The notes under the pieces are model-generated. The model did not search any database and was not told the DNA's origin. It saw only the letters and a program-made list of their open reading frames with translations. A stretch of 64,000 bases of DNA from an uncultured Candidatus Saccharibacteria bacterium (GTDB taxonomy: Bacteria > Patescibacteriota > Saccharimonadia > Saccharimonadales > Saccharimonadaceae), in NCBI GenBank assembly GCA_947307225.1, contig CAMZIL010000001.1, positions 124,001 through 188,000 on the forward strand, in the 5' to 3' direction. The position numbers and the translations under genes were made by a program. Of this stretch, positions 58,282-60,342 are shown piece after piece (positions within the stretch are counted from its first letter, which is position 1; each line of letters opens with the position of its first letter).

Positions 58282-58614
58282 TTACTTTTTTGGCGGGGTA
58301 ATATTTGCCGGACGGCCGTATTCTGGCATGATTATTTCAACTCGTTCGCCGCGGTGGTTATAGAGCGGAATATTTAAATCTTCTGCGAGCATATTAACAA
58401 CTGTTGCGCCGATGCGAAGACCCGTAAAACTGCCCGGTCCAGCAAAAAATGTAATGTCAGAAATATCTTTCCAATCGGCACCGTTTTCAACGAGCTTATC
58501 GTGGATAAATTTATGTAAATCACGCGCAAGAGTTCGGCCGGATTCCCATTCATAGGTATGATCATCTAGTTTCAGAATCGTTTTAGGCGCTGACGTATCT
58601 AAATATAATTTCAT
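58282..58614 (-). CDS. tsaB: Truncated TsaB-like tRNA threonylcarbamoyladenosine protein
   Basis: A 110-residue protein with the N-terminal ASKHA half of TsaB: MKLYLDTSAPKTILKLDD and the hallmark FFAGPGSFTGLRIGATV. TsaB normally has about 220-230 residues and partners TsaD, TsaE and TsaC in making t6A37 of tRNA. Here the C-terminal half is absent and the last 30 residues do not match it. The reading frame is intact and coupled to tsaE by ATGA, so this looks like a fixed short form, not decay. It could still dimerise with TsaD through the N-terminal lobe. Confidence 0.82.
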   Translation of the reverse strand: MKLYLDTSAPKTILKLDDHTYEWESGRTLARDLHKFIHDKLVENGADWKDISDITFFAGPGSFTGLRIGATVVNMLAEDLNIPLYNHRGERVEIIMPEYGRPANITPPKK

Positions 58615-59015
58615 TTTTCAATTAATTCCCTAGTATTCTCGTCAATGTATTTTATATCGATAATTTTATGGTCTAGCGGCAGAATATCCGCGATGCTTTG
58701 GCCCCACTCAATAATCGTAATATTGTTCTCATCCGCAATTGATTCGGCCAAATCTTCCGCCATTAGACCGGGATCTTCGAGGCGATAAAAATCATAGTGC
58801 GTGAGGGTATATTTTTCGCCCTGATAAAACCGCGAGATCGTGAATGATGGCGAACTTAGCGGCTCTTTGATGCCAATGCCCTGCGCTAAACCTCGCACAA
58901 AAGTCGTTTTACCCGCGCCAACATCGCCAACCAGCTCAATTACGGCTGGAGCCTGGAGTTTTTCGGCATAGCTCTTGCCAAAATCTAGCATCTCTTGCTC
59001 AGAACGAATAATCAT
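58611..59015 (-). CDS. tsaE: tRNA threonylcarbamoyladenosine biosynthesis ATPase TsaE
   Basis: A 134-residue P-loop ATPase that supports t6A synthesis with TsaB and TsaD. Walker A GDVGAGKTTFVRGLA (about 30-44), SPSFTISRFYQG, then HYDFYRLEDP and ITIIEWGQ are all standard TsaE features. It overlaps both neighbours by ATGA (comEC upstream, tsaB downstream). A TAAAAT box inside the comEC end, 6 nt before the ATG, may give it its own leaderless promoter. Confidence 0.95.
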   Translation of the reverse strand: MIIRSEQEMLDFGKSYAEKLQAPAVIELVGDVGAGKTTFVRGLAQGIGIKEPLSSPSFTISRFYQGEKYTLTHYDFYRLEDPGLMAEDLAESIADENNITIIEWGQSIADILPLDHKIIDIKYIDENTRELIEK

Positions 59016-60277
59016 GGTCTTATTTTAGCATAACTGGGGCGAAAACTATATCTAGTGCTCCTCTTTAGAATCGCCATGACCGCAAAAATCGGGACATAAA
59101 GCAGGAAAACCAGATGATTCCCGGCCGGAATCGAGAAGCCCGACCATGGTATGGCGGCTATCGTATTAATAATATGAATCTGGAACGATAAAAGTAGGCT
59201 CGCGAGAGGCACGAACAAGGCGAGCCGTGTTATCCCCAAAAGAAAAGTCAACAACATTACGTATGGAACTGCAGGAGTCACGAGCAAATTTGCAACGAGC
59301 GCCAGGAGCGGAACTTCGCCAAAACTATATATCGTAATCGGAAGACAAAGAAGCTGCGCTGAAAAACTAACAATCAGTAGACCAGCAACATAGCCTGGTT
59401 TGTTATCGCCATAAAAGAACTTTGTAATTGTTGGCGACAGAAATATTATCCCGCAATAGGAAGAAAACGATAGCTGCCAGGCTAGATTAGAAATATAACT
59501 AGGGTCTATTAGTAGCAAAATAGCTGCAACGTATAGCACTAGCCGTAACGGATGAAAACGCCGCCCATAGTACCAAGCCCAAAGCGCCAAAAATGTCATC
59601 AAGCCAGCGCGAGCCATGCTCGGGCTAAAACCAGTGACACTGACGTATGCGACAAGCATGATTGTAGATCCAATAAAAATCGCAAAGCGCGATATTTTCT
59701 TAAACATCTTTTTTGCCAAGCCAACAATCGTCGACAAATGATACCCAGATGCGACGACGACGTGAGCCAGCCCCACCAGGCGGAGCTTCCGTTTTTGCTC
59801 CTCCGATAGTAATGTCTTCTGCCCAGTTAAATAGCTGAGGGCCAAGCCGCTTTGTTCGTTGTCATCGAGTGACTCTTGGACGTTCTTCGTAAATATATCG
59901 CGCACTTTTAAGGCATAGTCCGGGATAATTGGGCGCGAAATCGATATAACAGCAGGACGATACATGAAAGCGGCATAGTTCCCAAAGCCTTCCTGGACGA
60001 CGCCGCGAACAGTGAGTTTATCCGAGCGCTCCAGTTTATAATCCTTTTCCAGCATCACGAATATTGCGCCCTGCTCAGCCTTGAGCTGAACGCGACAGTC
60101 GTCTTTCTTAAATTCGACGTCATTTGAAACAATGCCCTCAATAGTGGCGGTTTTATCAAAATAAGCAGTAAAGTCATTTTTCGCCGGAATTAGCGCAGCT
60201 ACCGCGGCATTAATAATAATTGCAATGCAGATTAAGAGCGGAATGATGGACGGATGGGGACGACGAGGTCAAATCAT
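59012..60277 (-). CDS. comEC: ComEC/Rec2 DNA-uptake channel core, with in-frame TGA at codon 3
   Basis: The coding frame runs from ATG 60277 to 59012 (about 420 residues) but codon 3 is TGA (60271-60269). The sequence after it is clearly coding: a basic segment RRPHPS and a membrane helix (IIPLLICIAIIINAAVAALI), then an OB-like DUF4131 region. The Competence domain follows with LSYLTGQKTLLSEEQKRKLRLVGLAHVVVASGYHLS, MARAGLMTFLALWAWYYGRR, and LALVANLLVTPAVPYVM. The only usual start after the TGA is GTG 60058 (next to an ATG), which would remove the first helix. There is no C-terminal metallo-beta-lactamase domain, a common CPR form. ComEC carries single-stranded DNA across the membrane. TATAAT lies 6 nt before ATG 60277, supporting it as the original start. 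Confidence 0.78.
59022..59027 (-). promoter_or_regulatory. Internal -10 box (TAAAAT) for tsaE
   Basis: Minus-strand TATGC-TAAAAT (59027-59022) inside the comEC end, 6 nt from the tsaE ATG. Confidence 0.45.
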
Positions 60278-60283
60278 ATGATG

Positions 60284-60289
60284 ATTATA
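60284..60289 (-). promoter_or_regulatory. comEC -10 box (TATAAT)
   Basis: Minus-strand TATAAT (60289-60284), 6 nt from ATG 60277. Confidence 0.6.
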
Positions 60290-60342
60290 TAGCGGGCTGC
60301 GTTTTATAAAAGCACAAGGACGTTCATGCGGCCTTCATGTGC

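Follow-up and report, generated by a model that had tools for sequence, protein, structure and literature searches.

In-frame UGA codons in the competence genes of a Saccharibacteria-like genus appear to be read as tryptophan and may gate DNA uptake

The comEC locus and its third codon

The window, that is, the whole 64,000-nucleotide stretch of DNA analysed here (G000:C1:124001-188000), belongs to a genome of 1.07 Mb in 50 contigs. Its minus strand carries comEC (59012-60277), a coding sequence of 422 codons including the terminal TGA, with tsaE, tsaB, metG and an LTA-synthase-like gene (assigned by reading) as neighbours. The gene opens with a leaderless ATG (60275-60277, minus strand) followed by ATT (60274-60272) and, as codon 3, by an in-frame TGA (60269-60271) that we read as tryptophan. 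On the minus strand this region runs ...CCTTGTGCTT...CTATATAATCATCATATGATTTGACCTCGTCGT, covering the TATAAT, the ATG, the ATT and the TGA.

An earlier note on this DNA had placed TATAAT 6 nt before the ATG at 60277, and we confirmed this -10 element at 60284-60289 on the minus strand. Further upstream, a competence promoter box, CTTGTGCTT (60310-60318, minus strand; consensus CT[TC]NNGCTT), begins 41 nt before the ATG, a box-to-ATG spacing that is the same in dprA, in the gene for a secreted lamin-tail-domain protein (LTD) and in other comEC genes. The promoter common to comEC, dprA and the LTD gene supports the leaderless start that had been proposed.

The frame from this ATG spans the whole gene, as previously described: beyond the codon-3 TGA it remains open through the ComEC domain to the terminal TGA (59012-59014, minus strand). 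The product was identified as ComEC by the Pfam family Competence (PF03772, E 4e-44), with an additional weak match to DUF4131 that lies below the DUF4131 cut-off. The first ordinary in-frame start past codon 3 is indeed the GTG at 60056-60058 (minus strand); because protein conservation already begins 5' of this codon, the GTG is unlikely to be the true start of comEC.

At its other end, the terminal TGA of comEC overlaps the ATG of tsaE, and the next in-frame TAA or TAG lies ~9 codons further on. In the comEC genes of G002 and G022 (loci L003 and L004), a TAA follows the terminal TGA directly. The tsaE gene also ends in a TGA, which overlaps the ATG of tsaB (window positions 58599-58614); this overlap is conserved in five species, and in each of them a TAA or TAG follows within ~4 codons.

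Recurrence of in-frame UGA and its correspondence with tryptophan

We compared these genes across a genus set of 45 species/genomes from a Saccharibacteria-like lineage, mostly draft MAGs; this affiliation agrees with the gene content and with the single relative among named genomes, a Saccharibacteria-like MAG. The loci chosen for reading favour the best-scoring species, and some counts were tallied by hand from search tables and are therefore given as "about". All 45 genomes carried comEC. In-frame TGA was found in about 37 of the 44 readable comEC genes (codon-3 cases counted), in comFC of 36 out of 39 genomes, in dprA of about 20 out of 41 and in the LTD gene of about 26 out of 43. When frames were read with TAA and TAG as the only stops, TGA was the sole internal stop in the four genes, and TAA and TAG never occurred. 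Many comEC genes contained one to several in-frame TGAs, those of G001 and G037 five or more, with a per-gene maximum of ~6. According to the search tables, the trait was absent from all four genes in G006, G014 and G026; seven species had no in-frame UGA in comEC, and UGA was missing from dprA in about half of the species and from the LTD gene in about a third.

The ATG-NNN-TGA opening of the window gene recurred in the comEC loci read from 11 further species of the genus (G002, G022, G020, G042, G029, G015, G031, G041, G004, G021 and G024, in addition to G000), whose proteins share roughly 45-60% identity. This bears on two proposals of the earlier note, namely that codon 3 is a nonsense mutation or a population polymorphism captured by the assembly. 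The window read in isolation is all that speaks for a strain-specific mutation, polymorphism or assembly error inactivating comEC; dozens of independent genomes have TGAs in comEC, comFC, dprA and the LTD gene, where the codon is conserved between species, the frame is otherwise intact and internal TAA or TAG is absent, which leaves such an explanation a negligible chance. Judged by these comparisons, the codon-3 TGA is real, neither a mutation nor an assembly error. A sense codon in relatives, which would have pointed to an error or a strain-specific change, does occur at this position in some species (MKHIHRPHLS versus MKuIHRPHIS), and TGA stands there in the 11 species named above.

Another proposal was a two-codon leader ORF with re-initiation, or, more generally, some other downstream start, and the position of the TGA directly after a leaderless ATG-NNN in 12 species is in line with such an arrangement. 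We consider it highly improbable, since conserved residues follow the TGA straight away with no start codon there, and species with a sense codon at this position align with the TGA-bearing ones without an indel. In relatives, UGA also occurs at the active-site tryptophan deep inside ComFC (VDDV-W-TTGSS) and within ComEC (LA-W-QLSF). The remaining option, a read-through site, was the correct one, except that it is not specific to comEC: the window gene represents one case of a genus-wide pattern in the core competence genes, where in-frame TGA is conserved and has been gained recurrently.

The invariant tryptophan columns indicate what this codon stands for. The LA[W]QLSF column of comEC contained 26 TGG and 4 TGA codons and nothing else, and the VDDV[W]TTGSS column of comFC 22 TGG and 6 TGA, again with no other codon; the L[W]xxG column of dprA was split between 11 TGG and 9 TGA among 20 sequences. 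On a three-protein tree, TGG and TGA were exchanged at least three, five and four times at the comEC, comFC and dprA sites, respectively. Because TGA alternates only with TGG at invariant tryptophan positions, the reading of UGA as tryptophan in competence genes is very well supported by these alignments. Selenocysteine was considered and rejected, given that UGA aligns with tryptophan at invariant positions and that a UCA tRNA was not found. Tryptophan is not conserved at comEC codon 3 itself, so the meaning of the window TGA rests on other sites in the same gene and genus.

To delimit the trait, we set six genomes of the genus against one another in every frame, treating TGA as sense, and retained at each position the frame with the best support. 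The conserved coding sequence covered in this way came to ~1.5 Mb and contained ~5,000 TGG codons; our own genome was covered letter by letter to roughly 60%. Conserved in-frame TGA was found only in comEC, comFC (identified by its zinc ribbon and phosphoribosyltransferase) and the LTD gene, to which the genus-wide search added dprA. In the sequence compared, in-frame UGA was confined to competence genes. TGA sites elsewhere were dismissed as antisense tRNA genes, promoter regions 5' of starts, gene ends or shadows. The lysS gene, which lies beside dprA in many loci, had no in-frame TGA. ComEC, ComFC and DprA form the saccharibacterial competence core, and comEC is required for transformation of Southlakia epibionticum (PMC10633639).

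At higher ranks, comEC profile matches were found in 266 out of 295 genomes of the family and 303 out of 393 of the order. Among the matches listed, comEC genes outside the genus had either no internal stop or a single one where the match reaches the gene end. Judged from the listing alone, these single TGAs (e.g., in G143, G144 and G232) are consistent with terminal stops; the match in the distant G386 contained one TGA plus one TAG.

UGA as a stop codon in the rest of the genome

Every one of the 45 genomes carried RF2, the release factor that recognises UGA; the match exceeded the curated cut-off in 42 of them, and the SPF and GGQ motifs were intact in the five sequences read. TGA terminates 7-14% of genes and is the rarest terminal stop. 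In G010, read-through would add more than 20 codons to 20 of the 46 TGA-ended genes. In the stretches examined of our own genome, 44 out of 67 TGA stops, about two thirds, overlap the next start as ATGA, which leaves few TGA stops standing free. Back-up stops after terminal TGAs were enriched in two genomes, largely via ATGA overlaps, and were absent in two others, for which reasons we did not count them as evidence.

Our genome encodes 44 tRNAs, all of which were read; the single tRNA-Trp has the anticodon CCA, as in all eight genomes where this tRNA was read. Suppressor tRNAs were sought using RF00005 at a loose E-value, ARAGORN, a structural regex and a UCA pattern. Even at a loose threshold, our genome yielded no tRNA with a UCA anticodon, and none of the 45 genomes contained an exact UCA paralogue of tRNA-Trp. 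A weak "tca" ARAGORN match in G010 appeared at the relaxed threshold only and was discarded as not tRNA-like. Three of the other species examined have exactly the same tRNA-Trp as our genome, and in the remaining ones it is almost the same. With A9, G24 and an anticodon stem of 5 bp, the tRNA-Trp of our genome is none of the known suppressor forms (Hirsh-type G24A, A9C or a 4-bp anticodon stem). Overall, these searches found neither a dedicated UGA-decoding tRNA gene nor a suppressor tRNA.

These data bear on the possibility that UGA has been reassigned to tryptophan throughout the genus (NCBI code 4) and is rarely used. The rarity of TGA as a terminal stop, and the predominance of ATGA overlaps among the TGA stops of our genome, would fit such a reassignment. 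RF2 with intact motifs, genes that still end in TGA, the lack of a detectable UCA tRNA and the restriction of in-frame TGA to competence genes all argue against it, and we regard a genus-wide code 4 as very unlikely.

A possible translational gate and comparable systems

We next turn to the placement of the codon. In comEC, comFC and dprA, in-frame TGA had a median relative position of 0.19 and TGG of 0.66, with 67% of TGA and 13% of TGG codons falling in the first quarter of the gene. The base after TGA was A in 48%, C in 28%, T in 16% and G in 7% of cases, as compared to 21%, 34%, 19% and 26% after TGG. The difference in the next base reaches p about 1e-6; neither this value nor the position statistics take phylogeny into account. 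An A or C after UGA makes a context permissive for read-through by tRNA-Trp, and the observed preference fits near-cognate reading. Several early columns, i.e., comEC codon 3 and three columns of the comFC zinc ribbon, had TGA in 5-10 species but never TGG. Since these columns lack TGG, the codon seems to have been kept for being UGA, beyond its value as tryptophan alone.

The genes concerned also share promoter features. The box CT[TC]NNGCTT, 41-43 nt 5' of the ATG, is common to comEC, dprA and the LTD gene in many species, and in most cases a -10 element sits a few bases 5' of the ATG. A scan for this arrangement in the sequence examined returned the LTD gene, comEC, dprA, a TGA-free ComM-like gene and a handful of unrelated genes. 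The ComM-like gene (Mg-chelatase family, identified by eye; G000:C4:57768, minus strand) has the same box and spacing. For comFC, CTTAAGCTT or CTTACGCTT was found 58 nt upstream, adjoining a conserved divergent promoter. This very conserved region 5' of the comFC GTG start reads CCTCCACTA...CTTAAGCTTTATTATA...AAATCAAG...GGAGG (L247-L276).

The LTD gene of our genome (G000:C1:188248-189564, minus strand) lies just beyond the window, near comEC; the secreted protein that it encodes combines a lamin-tail domain with cysteine-rich repeats and ends in a membrane helix. As the gene shares both the competence box and the in-frame UGA, its product is a candidate new competence protein. The sequence CTTATGCTT seems commoner than expected (e.g., G000:C1 22552, 30137, 42381, 60984, 296419 and 314478); its copies are apparently mostly intergenic, with a spacing that is not always of the competence type, and its candidate roles are that of a general promoter element and that of an uptake sequence.

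UGA may have drifted into these genes as a tolerated synonym of TGG, with no regulatory role, provided that competence proteins are needed only in tiny amounts and weak natural read-through suffices. Repeated interchange of TGG and TGA at invariant tryptophans, a next base that is mostly A or C, and the lack of UGA in dprA or the LTD gene of some species would all agree with such drift. It does not account for the strongly early position of in-frame UGA, for the early columns where TGA is never replaced by TGG, or for the retention of at least one UGA by 36 of the 39 comFC genes. A few percent read-through per site would be too little to produce the proteins of genes with three to six UGAs, and no other gene in the ~1.5 Mb compared has a conserved in-frame TGA, though many must be weakly expressed. 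Drift without regulation is therefore rather unlikely in our judgement.

We favour a dual use of UGA, to which we assign a probability of roughly 0.7: a stop recognised by RF2 in most genes, tryptophan in competence genes, with the early UGA gating translation of the regulon. Since UGA occurs early in competence genes in species after species, production of the DNA-uptake machinery would depend on reading it. Outside competence, RF2 would terminate at the early UGA and so silence this machinery. Once cells become competent, the decoding balance would shift so that tRNA-Trp(CCA) outcompetes RF2 and inserts tryptophan; candidates for the cause of the shift are a drop in RF2, modification or editing of C34 in the tRNA, and a factor not yet recognised. 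Some such state of efficient decoding appears necessary, because genes with five or more UGAs are beyond the reach of a few percent leakiness per site. The gated genes would be those of the competence regulon with its common promoter box, and a suppressor tRNA gene would be unneeded. Not every gene would need the gate, as some species have no UGA in dprA, the LTD gene or comEC. The gating function, its physiological trigger and the decoder are what we infer from sequence. A stronger formulation, in which the competence genes follow a genetic code that differs from the one used elsewhere in the genome and the gate is opened by a regulated, reversible change in UGA decoding, receives even odds from us.

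If true, such gating would make genetic-code ambiguity a regulatory switch and show one way in which codons could start to be reassigned. The pattern suggests that DNA uptake in this genus may be turned on and off through the reading of a stop codon. There is also a practical consequence: gene callers using table 11 return ComEC, ComFC, DprA and the LTD protein of the genus cut short or in pieces, so its species, which are probably competent, can appear unable to take up DNA.

A literature search found no description of a stop codon read as sense in a single bacterial pathway, and we know of no cellular organism in which a single pathway keeps a stop codon to encode a standard amino acid and all other genes still use it for termination. 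Natural UGA read-through by tRNA-Trp(CCA) occurs in single genes, e.g., that of the phage Q-beta A1 protein. The near-cognate tRNA-Trp is likewise the probable decoder here, and A after UGA is favoured; unlike the minor extension in Q-beta, the codon affects several genes of one pathway, with up to ~6 UGAs per gene.

Other precedents share single aspects of the pattern. The saccharibacterial system described previously comprises the same core genes, ComEC, ComFC and DprA, but in-frame stop codons are not mentioned there, and other genera of the order lack them in the comEC genes listed (PMC10633639). Tryptophan is also encoded by UGA genome-wide in Mycoplasmatales and in the Patescibacteriota family JAKLIH01, which has neither RF2 nor UGA stops and carries a UCA tRNA in two out of four genomes (PMC13092985); in the genus studied here, RF2 and UGA stops are kept, a UCA tRNA was not found and competence genes alone are affected. 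Alternatively coded phages recode stop codons in late genes (PMC10746230), and peptides from code 15 have been reported (PMC9523058). These phages likewise use a stop codon as sense in one functional class, probably delaying translation, but in the present case a cellular chromosome carries the codon, competence is the class concerned, RF2 persists and a suppressor tRNA was not found. Finally, in the Streptomyces bldA system, a rare codon, TTA, in genes dispensable for growth makes their translation conditional (PMC2000904). The codon described here differs in being a stop codon read as tryptophan without a dedicated tRNA gene; as in the bldA regulon, it is concentrated in one functional regulon.
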